NCBI GenBank assembly: GCA_937944245.1
Contig: CALDYY010000066.1
Coordinates: forward strand, 1-39,376
DNA: 39,376 bases
Direction: 5' to 3'
Source of the DNA: an uncultured Saprospiraceae bacterium
GTDB taxonomy: Bacteria > Bacteroidota > Bacteroidia > Chitinophagales > Saprospiraceae
How positions within the stretch are numbered: position 1 is the stretch's first letter; each line of letters begins with the position of its first letter. Both the position numbers and the translations under genes were made by a program. This document shows, one piece after another, positions 21,578-27,437 of the stretch. Below the pieces are notes generated by a model. That model saw only the letters and a program-made list of their open reading frames with translations. It made no database searches and was not told the origin of the DNA.

Positions 21578-22750
21578 TTATTCTCGTATGCTTATACTCA
21601 AATCATCTGCTTTTATTATTAAATTATTTCGATTTTCTAAACAATTTAATAACTTTTCTCCAAGTATTTCTCTTTTCCAGCCCGACTGTAAGCTTTCCTC
21701 TTTATAATACTCATCGTTTTTAATTTTTTTAAAAATATTTCTGGATATAACAAGTTCGGGTGCAATTTTTTGCTGTAAACATTGATATTGAATGAAATTA
21801 TAAAGTAACTCTAATTTTATGTCTTCTAATGGAGGAATATCATTAATTTGCATAATATCATTTAAAATGGCTATTTCTTCTTTAGAGCTTTCTTTATTAT
21901 ACATTTTTAACATTTCGTCGCCGTACTTGAGTATAAATTTTTCAGAAATACGGCGATTATTTTTTAAACCTTCTATTCCCATACCCATACTTTTTACAAT
22001 AGGAGTGATGTTTTTTGTAGCTAATATCATCTCCTTAGAGTGATTTCGCTCCTCTGCTTTTTTTCTCCTCCATTCGTATAAGCGCAATAAGAAAACTTGT
22101 TCTTTTAATGAAAAAATATTTAGCTGTTTATGTGAAAGTATTTCTTTGTGTGGCTCTTTTTCATAATAATCTACTTGCTTCAACTTATTAAATTCCTCTT
22201 GTACCCAGTCTAACCTAGCTAATAGTATTATTTTCTTTAAAAGAGCTTGATATAAGTTATATAGATTTATAACATCTTCCAAAGCATATTGAATTTGTCT
22301 GTTTTTTATAGGTCTTTCTTCCCAATCTGTTACTGTTTGGCTTTTACCGAGTTTGATATTTAGTTCATCTTCAACCAGTTTTCTTAAAGAGGTAGGGTAT
22401 TTATAGCCCACAAACCCCGCCGCTATTTGTGTATCAAAAATATTATCTGGTATTATATGATATAACTCATAAATCAGACGATAATCATTTTCTCCTGCAT
22501 GAGTAATGACTAAAACTTTTGGGTCAGTAATAATTTTAAGCAGTGGTTGGATATGAGGTAATTTTAAAACGTCAAATATAAAAAGCCCTTTTTCGCTAGC
22601 TACTTGTACGATACATAGTAAAGTTTGATAACGCTTTTCACCTATAAATTCTGTGTCCAAACTTATCCACGGAATGTTTTGATGAAGTGTTTGAAAATAA
22701 GCTAAATCAGCTTCTGTTTCTAAGAGATGATATTGTTCTATTGGAGGCAT
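21578..22750 (-). CDS. rnd: ribonuclease D, 3'-5' exonuclease
   Basis: The 390-residue enzyme trims the 3' ends of tRNA and other structured RNAs. The DEDDy exonuclease core is complete: Asp32 and Glu34 in LDTEF, Asp89 in GENDYRLI, and Tyr155 plus Asp159 in YALED. The C-terminal region from about 205 (LRLYEWRRKKAEERNHS...) is an HRDC-type helical domain, and a further helical tail reaches to 390. Length agrees with bacterial RNase D (about 375). It starts six bases after the stop of the 605-residue protein gene, so translation is almost certainly coupled. Its position directly behind a SNF2-related gene pair is discussed in the findings. Confidence 0.93.
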   Translation of the reverse strand: MPPIEQYHLLETEADLAYFQTLHQNIPWISLDTEFIGEKRYQTLLCIVQVASEKGLFIFDVLKLPHIQPLLKIITDPKVLVITHAGENDYRLIYELYHIIPDNIFDTQIAAGFVGYKYPTSLRKLVEDELNIKLGKSQTVTDWEERPIKNRQIQYALEDVINLYNLYQALLKKIILLARLDWVQEEFNKLKQVDYYEKEPHKEILSHKQLNIFSLKEQVFLLRLYEWRRKKAEERNHSKEMILATKNITPIVKSMGMGIEGLKNNRRISEKFILKYGDEMLKMYNKESSKEEIAILNDIMQINDIPPLEDIKLELLYNFIQYQCLQQKIAPELVISRNIFKKIKNDEYYKEESLQSGWKREILGEKLLNCLENRNNLIIKADDLSISIRE

Positions 22751-22756
22751 ATTTTT

Positions 22757-24574
22757 TTAATTGGTGATGAAATAACCAAATTCTTGTAACCTTTTTTTGA
22801 ATTTACTGTAATTTTCTTTTGATATAAGTACATGGTAACCTTCTGCTTTTGTCACAAGTTTTTTTAATAATTGGTCTCTAGCTATTAAATGGACTAGTTT
22901 AGTATTTGTTTCTGGTATTTTAAATATCCTTATTTCTTGTAATTCTTCTAATGGATCAATTTTTTGTCCCAGTTCTACAAAAAAATTCTCCCAAATTAAG
23001 GGGAGTTCACTGCCTATAAACTGTTGAAAAAGTTTAATTTTGGTGTTTAATTCTTCTTTTGATCGGCATTCTTTTAAAAATAATCTAAAATCAGTTTGAA
23101 ATCTAGTGGGGCTAATACGTTCTGCATAGGGACTAATAAGTGCACTAAGCATTTCATCATCCTCATTGATGAGTATAGAAAGAGAATCTTCCGATAGCTT
23201 TATTTCGTATTTTCCTATATTCTTTGGTGGAATATAGCTTCCTGTAATGCCTAAAACATAATCTCCCAGAGGAGTTCTCCTAATTGACTTTAATCCATCG
23301 TAAGGTGAAAATGAAGTCACACCAAGTGTGCTTACATCAGGTACATCGTATCCTATATCTACTAGCCCAAATGATGCGTAAAGAAAAAAAGTACCCTTTA
23401 CAAACGATTCAACAATGGCTCTTTTATATTTTCCTGACCGAATATAATGTTTATCATTATAATATTTAGATTCAGGGTCAACATATTGATAATATAATTT
23501 ATCTGCTACAGTATGTTCTAAAATAGGTTTTATTTCAATAACATTATAGAGCATGTAATCTTCTATATTTTTTATACTAACCCAAGATTTCTCGGGAAGT
23601 CTTTGCAATATTTTAAGCATAGTAGATTCTACCGCTGGCAAGCTATCACCATCTATATACCCAATTCCTTTTAAATAATGCAATACTAAAGTAGCTGTTT
23701 CTACAGAGTTTAAATAATGATGCCTAAATAAAATAGACCGCATTATCTCGGGAAATTCAAGTGATTGATTAATTAACTTATTTTTTACACCTAATATCAT
23801 TCCCACAATCAGGGTAGAACGGATATTTTTTAGCGTTTTATCTACATCATCACTATTAAAAAATTCTTTTAGATTTAGTTTGCGCTGCATTTTATTAATA
23901 GATGCAATAGTTGGGCGACCTTTAGCTGTTGTCGCTAATTGATCCTGATTCAGGTAGGTAATTATCCTCGCCCATTCCATCTGGATATCTTGTTCTCCTG
24001 TCACATAGAGGTAACTTACATGGGGGATAGTTTCTAATGCTATAATTTCTGCACTCTTGGGTTTCTCATAATATTGAGCTAAAACTCTTCTTAAAGATGG
24101 AGGAAGAGAAAGTAAAAGTTCTGGTTTTTGAGCATACCATCCAGCCGAATTTTCTACTCTAAAAATTAAAAAATCTTTTTTTATTGTATATTGAGCTTCT
24201 ACGTGATTCCCCCATGTTTTTTTTTCTGTAATATCATATATTCTTATATTCATTTTTTGCTCAATTTCGTCTTGGTGGAGACGTTCTGTCCAAATTAGAG
24301 CATCCATTATTTGTTGAACCTCTTCAATTAAAGACTCTCTAAATTTAAAATATATTTCTTTGTTGGCAAATGGAATAGCACACATACTTGCTATCTGCTC
24401 TTTTTGATAGGCTTTTAACTTGATTAAATCTAACTCCATTCTAGATATGCGCTGTCCAAGAAGAAAATCATAGTTATTGGCTATAAATATTCTAGTTGTC
24501 GTTTTAAATGCGATTTCTAATTCGTTTTTATTATATGACTCACTTAGTATTTTAGCGACAGTCACTAAATTCAT
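22757..24574 (-). CDS. 605-residue protein resembling a free-standing helicase-associated module
   Basis: I chose the ATG at 24574. A TTG at 24607 would add 11 residues and overlap the helicase gene by 11 bases. No signal peptide, membrane helix or catalytic motif is visible. The middle and C-terminus resemble the helicase-associated (Helicase_C_3/XPB-Ssl2-like) layout: several winged-helix-like blocks, then RRTPLGDYVLG, then a beta segment YEIKLSEDSLSILINEDDE, a helical stretch ISPYAERISPTRFQ, and a terminal beta-alpha-beta unit (ETNTKLVHLIARDQLLKKL ... YHVLISKENYSKFKKRL). The helicase motor itself is absent. The SNF2 gene lies directly upstream (22-base gap) and RNase D six bases downstream, so a protein that works with the SNF2 enzyme is a reasonable inference. 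The family assignment is from pattern recognition only. Confidence 0.75.
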   Translation of the reverse strand: MNLVTVAKILSESYNKNELEIAFKTTTRIFIANNYDFLLGQRISRMELDLIKLKAYQKEQIASMCAIPFANKEIYFKFRESLIEEVQQIMDALIWTERLHQDEIEQKMNIRIYDITEKKTWGNHVEAQYTIKKDFLIFRVENSAGWYAQKPELLLSLPPSLRRVLAQYYEKPKSAEIIALETIPHVSYLYVTGEQDIQMEWARIITYLNQDQLATTAKGRPTIASINKMQRKLNLKEFFNSDDVDKTLKNIRSTLIVGMILGVKNKLINQSLEFPEIMRSILFRHHYLNSVETATLVLHYLKGIGYIDGDSLPAVESTMLKILQRLPEKSWVSIKNIEDYMLYNVIEIKPILEHTVADKLYYQYVDPESKYYNDKHYIRSGKYKRAIVESFVKGTFFLYASFGLVDIGYDVPDVSTLGVTSFSPYDGLKSIRRTPLGDYVLGITGSYIPPKNIGKYEIKLSEDSLSILINEDDEMLSALISPYAERISPTRFQTDFRLFLKECRSKEELNTKIKLFQQFIGSELPLIWENFFVELGQKIDPLEELQEIRIFKIPETNTKLVHLIARDQLLKKLVTKAEGYHVLISKENYSKFKKRLQEFGYFITN

Positions 24575-24596
24575 ATTGTAGTAAATATTTTGTATT

Positions 24597-27437
24597 TTAG
24601 TTACCAAACTCTAAATTACCTCCCAAAATGAAGCTGATATCATCCTCTGTCAAGGATTTTAACGCACTGCCATCCGTCGTAATTATATTGTCGAATAACT
24701 CTTTTTTTAATTGTTGTAGTTGTAGAATTTTTTCTTCTATTGTATTTTGTGTAATCAGTTTATAAGCAATTACTTTATTCATTTGTCCAAAGCGATGCGC
24801 TCTATCAATAGCCTGATTTTCGGCAGCTACATTCCACCACGGATCAAAAATAAAGATGGTATCAGCAGCCGTTAAATTCAATCCTGTTCCTCCTGTTTTT
24901 AGGGTCATTATAAATACTTTACAATCATCTTCATTTTGAAATTTATCTACTAATTGTTGTCGGTCTCTTGTTGCACCAGTCATACTCACATAATTGATTC
25001 CTGCCTCGTTAAGTACTTCGCCGATAAGCTCTACGGCAATTAAGTAGTTAGCAAATACCAGTGCTTTATGCCCATTAGCGATAGTATCTAGTAGCTGTTC
25101 TTGAAGCAGCTCGCGCTTGGGGGAAATTACTTTTCCATCTGAAACGTGTTCGGGAATGGATGCGATTTGGCGTAATTCATTAAGTGCTTGGAAAATAAAG
25201 AACTGTGCGCCTTGTACTCCTTTTTTAGCAATTTGAGAACCTATCGCGGACTGATAAAAATTCCTTCGCTGCTCGTATAATTTTCTTTGTTCATCCGACA
25301 TCTCTACATATAATGTCTGTTCTATTTTATCTGGTAGCTCTTTAAGCACATCTTTTTTTAATCTGCGTAACACGAAAGGATATATTTTTTTCCTTAAATG
25401 TTCCATTGCTATTTTATCATTATATTTTTGTATTGGTGTTAAATAGTCTCTATTAAACTGATTTACAGAGCCAAACATAGTTGGGTTCAAAAAGCGGAAT
25501 AAAGAATATAACTCTCCAAGATTATTTTCTACTGGTGTTCCACTTAGTGCCAATCGGTGTTTTGACTTCAATAGCATTACTGCTTTGGTTGTTAAGGCAT
25601 TAACATTCTTGATGTTTTGCGACTCATCTAAAATGATGTACAAAAAATCAATTTCTTTCAATATTTCAATTTCATTTCTAGCAATAGAATATGTCGTTAA
25701 TATCAATTTTGCCTTTAATGCTATTTCCAAGTCTCGGTCATTACCATGAAAAATATAGGTAGAAAGTTGAGGCGCAAACTTTTTAACTTCCCTTTGCCAG
25801 TTATATAATAAACTTTTAGGCATTATGATTAAAGAAGGTATATCTGATTCTTCTTCATAAATATCTGCTAATAGAGTTATAGTTTGAAGCGTTTTACCTA
25901 AGCCCATATCATCCGCCAAGCATCCACCTAATTGGTGGTCTTGCATATAATGAAGCCACTTATAACCTTGTTCTTGATATGGACGAAGTGTAGCATCAAC
26001 AAATGGGTTTTTAATGTTATAATGTTCTAAGTTTGATAAGCCTTCGTAAAATTCTTTAGGCTTTTTAAAAATTTCTTGGTTGGTCTTTTCTTCAATAATT
26101 TCTTCAACTATGGGGAGGTCAAAAAAGGAAACTTTAGCATTATTATCTTTACCTTTTTTAAAAATACGCTCTAATTGACGCATGTATTTTTCATTGACCA
26201 CAGCTTGCGTTCCATCACTTAATTGGATGTAACGGTTCTTGTTAAATTGATTAAGAACATCAAATAAATTCAGTTCTTCTCCCTCAAAATTTAAAGTTAC
26301 TTCTCCCTCAAAGAAATTAATGTTATGGGACAGATTTAAAGAAAGTTTTGGCGTAGTTGTTGTAACTTTATAAGATTTTAACTTCTCCGCTCCAAATAAT
26401 TGATATTTAGTTAGTAATCCAGGAAGCTCATTATAAATAAAATTAGCAGCAATATCTTTAGGGATAATAAATAACTCATCCTCTTTAATAACTTGGCTTT
26501 TTACGCCCTCCTTTGATTTTTTTGGTGTTTGTTGTTTAAGTAATTGTTCTATTTCTTTGATAACTTGTTCAATAGGTTCTCGTTCTATAAATTTAACAGT
26601 AATTATTTTTTCTAATTCATTAATTTCTGCCAGCCTAAATAGTTCAAATTGATCCATTACTTCCATGCCAACTTCTGGTAAACTTTGTCCGACACGCATC
26701 AAGAGAGCGTCATCGGCATCAATCTTTTCAAAAATTAGACTTGGAATGGCGTGTACTTTATCTGGAGTTAACTTAACAGTATAATTTCTAAAACTTACTT
26801 TTTCTACATTTTCAATATTAGAAAAAAATAAGGATAAAAATACCACTAACTCATTCTGTGATATAATAGTATCGAAATAGGGCAAGCTATTATATTGGCT
26901 TCCTAAAGGCTTTACATTTACTATTTTATTATTAATTAAAATATATTGGTCGCTTAGTAATTTTATGTTTTCAAATTGCTGGTCAGCTATTTCTATAATT
27001 ACCTGACTTCTGAACCGTTCTACATTTGCTTTTTCACCCTCGATAGGTTTTATCAATAACCTTAATACAGCATTTTCTGATGTAAATTGAAGCGGCTGCA
27101 TGTTTTCATCAACGATGTTGTTACAATGTTTCAATTGCTCGATTAGATGTTCATGCGCCGATAAATAAAGAAAATCAGTAGGCTTTTCCCAGTCAATCAA
27201 GAAACTGTTTTTATCTTGGATCTGGTCAATCAGTCGAAGAACATGACGCTCTGCGCCACCATGGTTAAGGTAATTTACCTCTACCTCAATTCCATGCTTG
27301 TTTACCACTTTGAGGTATGCTCCGAAAGCATCAAAGAGTAGCTGAAAAAAAACTTCATCTACTTTTTGAAAAGAGTTCCTCGCTTGTTCTGATTGTTTTC
27401 TGAAGTGATCAAAGATATTTGTAGGCTGTTTCATCAT
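24597..27437 (-). CDS. SNF2-family DEAD/DEAH-box helicase (ATP-dependent translocase)
   Basis: The 946-residue protein has a long N-terminal region (about 1-440) without a recognisable zinc-binding SWIM motif, then a complete SNF2 motor (about 490-930). Motif I is ADDMGLGKTLQ, Ia IIMPKSLLYNW, II LDESQ, III LALSGTPVENNLGELYS, IV around ALVFANYL, V TGGTGLNLTAADT, and VI QAIDRAHRFGQ. These enzymes translocate on double-stranded DNA and remodel DNA-protein complexes. The bacterial class (HepA/RapA and SNF2-related) is poorly characterised; some members act in DNA repair or defence. The protein is cytoplasmic. It is the first gene of the five-gene unit, with a promoter-like box about 24 bases upstream. 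The start is the first of two adjacent ATGs. Confidence 0.95.
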   Translation of the reverse strand: MMKQPTNIFDHFRKQSEQARNSFQKVDEVFFQLLFDAFGAYLKVVNKHGIEVEVNYLNHGGAERHVLRLIDQIQDKNSFLIDWEKPTDFLYLSAHEHLIEQLKHCNNIVDENMQPLQFTSENAVLRLLIKPIEGEKANVERFRSQVIIEIADQQFENIKLLSDQYILINNKIVNVKPLGSQYNSLPYFDTIISQNELVVFLSLFFSNIENVEKVSFRNYTVKLTPDKVHAIPSLIFEKIDADDALLMRVGQSLPEVGMEVMDQFELFRLAEINELEKIITVKFIEREPIEQVIKEIEQLLKQQTPKKSKEGVKSQVIKEDELFIIPKDIAANFIYNELPGLLTKYQLFGAEKLKSYKVTTTTPKLSLNLSHNINFFEGEVTLNFEGEELNLFDVLNQFNKNRYIQLSDGTQAVVNEKYMRQLERIFKKGKDNNAKVSFFDLPIVEEIIEEKTNQEIFKKPKEFYEGLSNLEHYNIKNPFVDATLRPYQEQGYKWLHYMQDHQLGGCLADDMGLGKTLQTITLLADIYEEESDIPSLIIMPKSLLYNWQREVKKFAPQLSTYIFHGNDRDLEIALKAKLILTTYSIARNEIEILKEIDFLYIILDESQNIKNVNALTTKAVMLLKSKHRLALSGTPVENNLGELYSLFRFLNPTMFGSVNQFNRDYLTPIQKYNDKIAMEHLRKKIYPFVLRRLKKDVLKELPDKIEQTLYVEMSDEQRKLYEQRRNFYQSAIGSQIAKKGVQGAQFFIFQALNELRQIASIPEHVSDGKVISPKRELLQEQLLDTIANGHKALVFANYLIAVELIGEVLNEAGINYVSMTGATRDRQQLVDKFQNEDDCKVFIMTLKTGGTGLNLTAADTIFIFDPWWNVAAENQAIDRAHRFGQMNKVIAYKLITQNTIEEKILQLQQLKKELFDNIITTDGSALKSLTEDDISFILGGNLEFGN

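Follow-up and report, generated by a model that had tools for sequence, protein, structure and literature searches.

A conserved bacterial gene pair of an SNF2-family translocase and a motorless protein with a predicted p52-like fold

The gene pair and its conservation

We describe two adjacent genes in the DNA of an uncultured Saprospiraceae bacterium (GenBank assembly GCA_937944245.1, contig CALDYY010000066.1, positions 1 to 39,376; this whole stretch of 39,376 nucleotides is called the window). One encodes an SNF2-family motor and the other, downstream on the same strand, a motorless protein that we call P605 (Table 1). A preliminary description of this DNA had reported an SNF2 motor followed 22 nt later by a 605-residue protein without a catalytic motif, and the open reading frames (ORFs), the motifs and the Pfam evidence agree with it. 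P605 has 605 residues when read from the ATG at 24574 (22757-24574), 22 nt past the SNF2 stop, and 616 residues when read from a TTG inside the last SNF2 codons, overlapping that stop; its residues are numbered here from the TTG.

Table 1 Features of the SNF2-P605 pair in the window
Feature	Position	Strand	Basis
P605, motorless protein, predicted p52/Tfb2-like partner	22757..24607	-	ORF; AlphaFold pLDDT 91.0; p52 is the top structural match
P605 winged-helix/helical region (predicted), residues 89-464	23216..24343	-	aligns with p52 ~44-305 (VIA 8ebs_D, 7lbm_Z, 6tru_B)
P605 clutch (predicted p52 HubA / XPB-NTD fold), residues 465-552	22952..23215	-	VIA against XPB N-terminal domains (NTDs)
P605 C-terminal domain (CTD), predicted p8-like/p52-CTD-like, residues 553-616	22760..22951	-	2jnj (p8) Z 3.6, 1ydl Z 2.8
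SNF2-family double-stranded DNA (dsDNA) translocase, 946 aa	24597..27437	-	ORF; SNF2-rel_dom E 4e-70, Helicase_C E 3.2e-20
SNF2 N-terminal region, residues 1-482	25992..27437	-	conserved within subfamily (A5 alignment, 72 sequences); no clear known-fold match
Walker A DMGLGKT, residues 510-516	25890..25910	-	invariant in 72/72 sequences
Walker B/DExx DESQ, residues 604-607	25617..25628	-	D, E, Q invariant in 72/72; S in 70/72

Judged by its sequence, the motor is intact, with its motor motifs kept. It has the SNF2_N and Helicase_C domains, Walker A, DExx, SGTP and motifs V and VI, and SGTP is invariant in all 72 aligned sequences, of which the window's is one. Pfam cut-offs are exceeded by SNF2-rel_dom, Helicase_C and ResIII alone. 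The nearest solved chain by sequence is 1z63_A, a snf2/rad54-family helicase (E 4.3e-98), and the motor is in this respect related to the SWIM-associated bacterial and archaeal SNF2 ATPases of the SsoRad54 type. One P605 relative (L134:10056-12425) carries an N-terminal SWIM zinc finger (E 1.5e-7), the only one among 73 P605 members, and a 317-aa ORF separates it from its SNF2 gene. Unlike the SWIM-associated ATPases, neither window protein has a SWIM match in the Pfam scan, and the partner is predicted to be p52-like. The SWIM finger of that relative, a module known with prokaryotic SNF2 ATPases according to PMC5512222, would suit a factor that recycles RNA polymerase in the manner of RapA/YwqA and has a separate subunit for binding the polymerase or DNA, the likeness to p52 then being incidental; RapA/HepA and YwqA are bacterial SNF2 proteins described as acting on or interacting with RNA polymerase (PMC5512222, PMC7385302). 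However, nothing in the analysis ties the pair to RNA polymerase, and the Pfam scan gave no accessory domain above cut-off in the motor. Pfam has models for the RapA-specific accessory domains, and in that scan none of these reached its cut-off in the motor either. We regard such a recycling factor as quite unlikely.

The tight gene order, which the preliminary description had singled out, is conserved well beyond the window. A first scan of genome contigs with the single window P605 confirmed no relative. P605 matches occur in 6 of the 61 genomes searched in the family. The order has 6 positive genomes among 198 and the phylum 7 among 296, each of these three counts including the window's genome, and one further family has 4 among 10. 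There are 19 distinct P605-positive genomes, again with the window's included, and in 17 of them a full-length SNF2 orthologue adjoins P605. In the other two, P605 is either intact but orphaned (L018) or reduced to a remnant of 177 C-terminal residues (L016). In the family to which the window belongs, SNF2 matches at E 0 and full-length P605 proteins are confined to the same five genomes; the remaining SNF2 matches (E <= 1e-100) are different, mostly longer proteins that align from residue 313 onward only.

A second survey used a motor-only profile (A3, residues 318-478) against a species-level genome collection, and the best 80 of 163 relatives were kept; 8 of these 80 SNF2 loci were apparently already in the P605-based search. 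Seven loci in which the contig stops at or shortly past the SNF2 gene were set aside. P605 lies downstream on the same strand in 71 of the 73 testable loci, a P605 truncated by a contig end being scored as positive; L104, among the seven set aside, has 510 nt left with no P605 match and would make the count 71 of 74. P605 is the next gene of at least 100 aa in 70 loci, L134 being the sole one of the 71 with an intervening ORF, and in 59 of the 71 the stop-to-stop open frame of P605 begins before the SNF2 stop or at most 100 nt after it. By their record titles, the SNF2 relatives come from Bacteroidota, Ignavibacteria/Kapaibacterium, Desulfobacteraceae and other Deltaproteobacteria, KSB1, SAR324, Nitrospira, Omnitrophus, Kiritimatiellae, Fusobacteriales and others; Fusobacterium vincentii (L171) also has an adjacent pair. 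Eight loci have two P605 genes, which are in tandem (L081, L087, L117, L126), flank the motor on both sides (L103, L120, L127) or are divergent (L123).

The counts of both surveys show that the pairing is not due to chance. Pairwise distances of motor and P605 correlate with r 0.88 across 56 loci, with none of 999 permutations as high; this correlation reflects co-inheritance, not contact. P605 diverges faster than the motor, with a mean identity of 26% versus 52%. Its C-terminal part is better conserved, residues 455-616 having a mean column identity of 32% against 21% for the whole protein. Some relatives are longer: 14 of 72 full-length proteins exceed 800 residues, and 4 of 8 scanned proteins of that size have HEAT-repeat matches in the N-terminal part, one of them above cut-off.

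Beyond lineage-level synteny, no third conserved gene was seen in the neighbourhoods compared, and a conserved third partner, including the window's RNase D-like gene, was rejected as unmatched there. The RNase D-like gene (21578-22750, same strand) begins 6 nt past P605, a linkage not seen in the relatives compared. The other window neighbours are a peptide-type ABC transporter and an AsmA-like protein, and promoter-like sites in the region show no excess over shuffles.

Predicted structure of P605

At E <= 1, P605 has a single Pfam match, ANAPC3 (E 0.12, under its cut-off), and nothing in NCBIfam or PADLOC. We obtained an AlphaFold2 model from a 73-sequence alignment (pLDDT 91.0, pTM 0.85). 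When it is compared with solved structures, entries of TFIIH or of the pre-initiation complex fill the top 11 Foldseek rows, the matched chain being p52/Tfb2 in each, and XPB chains come next; the best match is the p52 chain 8ebs_D (E 2.8e-5, probability 1.00), and p8 appears lower in the ranking (E >5). The matched subunits were deduced from titles, chain letters and VIA ranges, with 8ebt_D and 7o4i_2 named as p52/TFB2. The VIA-align values given below re-align Foldseek's own ranking and are not an independent search.

With 8ebs_D, 371 residues are aligned (Z 11.0), model residues 90-614 on chain residues 45-462, at an rmsd of 19.2 Å over the whole p52 chain, which implies a different arrangement of the domains. 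For the N-terminal half of p52 (6tru_B), 216 residues align (Z 8.1, rmsd 14.0 Å), and within model residues 46-181 there are alignments to the archaeal regulators 1ub9 (Z 3.7) and 2p4w (Z 3.5). XPB NTDs align on model residues 465-554 at Z 8.3-9.0 and 3.0-3.4 Å, including the yeast XPB chain 7o4l_7 (Z 9.0, rmsd 3.2 Å, 86 residues) and 8byq_0 (Z 8.5, 3.0 Å, 84 aa), whereas the best row outside TFIIH has Z 4.4. In the full-length rows, the C terminus of p52 also aligns to the end of P605, and p8 aligns to the last 60 residues at Z 2.8-3.6. The clutch of human p52 is given as residues 306-399/400 and its p8-binding domain as 400-462 (PMC6422496, PMC9557730). Taken with this layout, the domain matches indicate that P605, as a predicted model only, repeats the p52 order of winged-helix region, clutch and p8-like CTD.

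The preliminary description had noted a resemblance of the later part of P605 to the region fused to XPB/Ssl2-like helicases, and the modelled clutch at residues 465-552 bears this out. More than had been claimed is supported, because the match extends over the whole p52 subunit, beyond a helicase-associated tail.

Relatives beside XPB, Wadjet and other genes

Relatives of L153 form a second branch of the P605 family, of which ten loci were examined. Profiles of the SNF2-linked proteins (A4) and of the second branch (A10, 7 sequences) align over 547 columns (E 8e-42), and A10 matches the profile of the bacterial XPB NTD (A7, 3 sequences) at E 1.1e-5, the best of 60 column shuffles reaching 0.15. 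The XPB NTD is also the subject of PF13625 (Helicase_C_3), the family that the preliminary description had named for comparison with P605. PF13625 matches relatives but not the window's own protein. Among the P605 members, 3 of 73 match weakly at E <= 1 (best E 0.011). More distant relatives score 45.3 bits (L170, Rhodococcus), 32.0 (L153), 31.5 (L173) and 24.3 (L172) at a cut-off of 34.2, with L153 at 35.0 bits in a genome search as opposed to the separate scan. Four of the matches (L133, weak at E 0.03; L153; L170; L173) all map to window residues 501-584. P605 thus resembles the XPB NTD in the predicted fold of residues 465-552 (Z 9.0) and in having one relative above the cut-off; it differs in carrying the domain on a separate, motorless protein.

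The coincidence of the four PF13625 matches, the profile match of the second branch to the XPB NTD, the XPB neighbours of some family members and the step from Z 8.3-9.0 (at about 3 Å) down to Z 4.4 all argue against P605 being a generic winged-helix DNA-binding adaptor, whose resemblance to p52 would be convergent and uninformative on motor control. Such an adaptor would fit with the commonness of winged helices, the lack of a direct sequence match to p52, the loose whole-chain superposition and the failure to find a clutch in the SNF2 partner; we consider it improbable.

XPB adjoins the P605-type gene in three of the ten second-branch loci. On a Gloeocapsopsis dulcis plasmid (L173), a gene annotated 'DNA repair helicase XPB' lies 1 nt after the P605-type gene; in L174 the P605-type and XPB matches are about 50 nt apart; and in L153 XPB comes first, with the P605-type gene about 1 kb away. 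An apparent p52-XPB fusion in L174 was rejected as an artefact of the ORF caller, the two matches being in different frames. The genome of L119, Desulfococcaceae bacterium HSG8, holds both the XPB-linked gene of L153 and a full-length P605 match on another contig (L169). No XPB or SNF2 neighbour was seen in the loci of Rhodococcus (2), Shewanella (1) and Polaromonas (1), although one Rhodococcus protein among them carries the annotation 'helicase-associated domain-containing protein'.

A comparable arrangement exists outside the P605 family. In L160 (3267-6756) and L161 (3658-7312), a bacterial XPB gene is followed by an overlapping gene for a motorless PF13625 protein with a weak WYL-like tail. 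We take this to be the arrangement of Mycobacterium Rv0861c/Rv0862c. As in the window, a superfamily-2 motor has a motorless, clutch-bearing neighbour, and the profile of this classical XPB neighbour (A11, 3 sequences) aligns with the second P605 branch at the clutch region (E 6e-7; best of 60 column shuffles 0.037). Besides the different motor and the WYL-like tail, it differs in that the window's own branch aligns unconvincingly: a match of the P605 profile to A11 was rejected at E 0.12, the C-terminal part being equalled by 5 of 60 shuffles. When A11 is compared with 177,635 PDB sequences, its first match is XPB (E 0.011), yeast TFB2 is matched at E 0.13, and the clutch is the matched part in both. 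The L161 partner, from another family, gives weak Tfb2 matches (E 0.054 and 0.13). The motorless protein of L160 and L161 is a related, possibly undescribed XPB partner.

Other neighbours of the second branch are defence genes. On Cupriavidus plasmids, a P605-type gene precedes Wadjet genes in L175 (7728-17072), annotated as JetA, DUF4194, SbcC/MukB-like and JetD; a Wadjet-like group is recognised in L172 by JetA in Pfam and in L178 by similar ORF sizes only. The Polaromonas plasmid pPNAP01 (L177:7545-14154) has an orphan P605-family gene beside a DEAD/DEAH helicase and an annotated Hachiman HamA. Only part of the matching plasmid records was fetched.

These relatives next to Wadjet, near Hachiman and on plasmids suggest that the SNF2-P605 pair might itself serve, as a system of two genes, in defence against phages or plasmids; SNF2 would then track on invading DNA and P605 would recognise it or signal, a view compatible with a p52-like mechanism. 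It would agree with the patchy spread of P605 at the ranks counted above and across phyla without a fixed context, and the best PADLOC match of the motor is the DpdE model (E 2e-133). However, the PADLOC similarity of the motor lies mainly within the SNF2 core, and all NCBIfam defence equivalogs score far under their cut-offs (ZorD 246 of 1500 bits, DrmD 122 of 950, DpdE 50 of 500). Around the loci, 135 PADLOC models, including DpdF, mad3, mad6, mad8, PtuA and SspH, match at least one of 117 flanking proteins (116 of 126 picked flanks and one other ORF, with flanks >900 aa excluded) at E <= 1e-10, but each family is found in at most 3 of the 117, with no background rate for comparison, and when 10 larger flanks were scanned one by one, 8 gave no match at 1e-10. 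The window's own neighbours, named above, also count against it. Carriage by viruses or phages was rejected as well: the A3 profile found no relative in viral contigs, no phage record matches P605, and no fold match in BFVD reached E 0.001. We think a dedicated defence system rather unlikely.

Mechanism, role and origin

The two genes probably encode one machine, an SNF2 dsDNA translocase with a separate, motorless p52/Tfb2-like regulatory subunit. The comparison is with TFIIH, in which p52/Tfb2 works with XPB/Ssl2 and p8/Tfb5. What P605 shares with p52 is the modelled domain order and its place next to a superfamily-2 dsDNA translocase while having no motor of its own. Unlike p52, it is bacterial and is paired with SNF2 instead of XPB; no clutch was recognised in the N-terminal region of that motor, and P605 has no significant sequence match to p52.

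Several results weigh against this reading. In sequence, neither the Tfb2 profiles (PF03849, TIGR00625) nor PF13625 (cut-off 34.2 bits) match the window P605 at E <= 1. The profiles of P605 and of the second branch found no p52 chain among PDB sequences, and a direct sequence relationship to PDB p52 was rejected accordingly. The SNF2-linked C terminus matches the XPB NTD only weakly (E 9e-4, probability 23, best shuffle 0.0086). In structure, the whole-chain superposition on p52 is loose (TM 0.28/0.35 at the rmsd given above), as would be expected of flexible domains, and it makes weak evidence for the N-terminal half of the model. In gene order, no SNF2 gene was seen within the 16 kb fetched around the orphan P605 of L018, two of the 73 testable SNF2 loci (L102, L119) have no adjacent P605, and XPB was not seen in 7 of the 10 second-branch loci.

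The motor gives further points on the same side. A model of its residues 1-482 (AlphaFold pLDDT 90.4) has no Foldseek match at E <= 0.001, and its best VIA row has Z 3.7 with no clutch recognised. By profile comparison, the N-terminal region matches the P605 C terminus at E 0.72 and the XPB NTD at E 0.0033, the latter over 34 columns only, with probability 9.6 and without a shuffle control. On these values we rejected the idea that the N-terminal region of the motor has a clutch as well. Within the scope of residues 1-482, a missing clutch match is not proof that the fold differs, and the null doubles as an internal negative control for the P605 structure pipeline. With no clutch found there, the XPB-p52 interface is not simply transferable to SNF2-P605, and the result counts against a homologous clutch-clutch contact of the p52-XPB type. 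We call P605 p52-like, not p52, because the Tfb2 profiles do not match it and the window's motor is not XPB, and also because of the missing clutch in the motor N-terminal region and the missing sequence match to eukaryotic p52.

What the tools returned is the gene pair with its intact motor motifs and its spread, the predicted fold, the profile link to the XPB NTD and the XPB-adjacent members; from them we infer a physical complex, control of the ATPase and a cellular role for SNF2-P605. Here, TFIIH may serve as the guide. According to the cited work, XPB is recruited by p52 by way of a clutch dimer that is pseudo-symmetric, and p52, together with p8, both stimulates and limits the XPB ATPase (PMC6422496, PMC7708078); the clutch and the p8-binding CTD of p52 and its control of XPB are described there (PMC6422496, PMC9557730, PMC7708078). 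SNF2 proteins are held to translocate on dsDNA without strand separation (PMC5512222). The SNF2 ATPase would thus track along dsDNA, with P605 as a separate, motorless regulatory and anchoring subunit. P605 would most likely hold on to the motor with two domains, the clutch and the p8-like C-terminal one, and would couple or limit the motor's ATPase as p52 does for XPB, and its winged-helix region may contact DNA or an additional partner. Docking might occur via the unmatched N-terminal region of the motor, or two P605 clutches might pair, as the loci with two P605 genes would permit. The motor itself was probably exchanged, the P605 family pairing with bacterial XPB and the window's branch with SNF2.

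The pair is scattered over the phyla in varying gene surroundings, which agrees with an accessory function that moves horizontally. It might conceivably be a genome-maintenance translocase of this kind, one that removes or rearranges complexes of protein and DNA, stalled RNA polymerase for example, a role that we put forward as speculative and somewhat unlikely.

Titles and abstract openings of the open-licence PMC literature yielded no bacterial p52-like protein and no SNF2-P605 pair, and a 2012 study of bacterial XPB states that clear homologues of TFIIH subunits beyond XPB and XPD were not found in bacteria (PMC3353954). A fixed gene pair in many unrelated bacteria suggests that the TFIIH type of motor-regulating subunit occurs in bacteria too. 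A widespread family that has no name from Pfam or NCBIfam here gains a partner and a testable mechanism, and a p52-like subunit beside two different motors offers a small, expressible system for asking how such a subunit affects a dsDNA translocase. The finding also bears on the origin of TFIIH. p52 may be an old family that in bacteria serves as a motor-exchanging regulatory module, with an SNF2 branch, an XPB branch and some members beside Wadjet, and TFIIH may have inherited its p52-translocase unit ready-made; this seems to us quite possible, and we stop just short of favouring it. If true, the bacterial XPB-P605 branch would be a minimal p52-XPB module outside eukaryotes.

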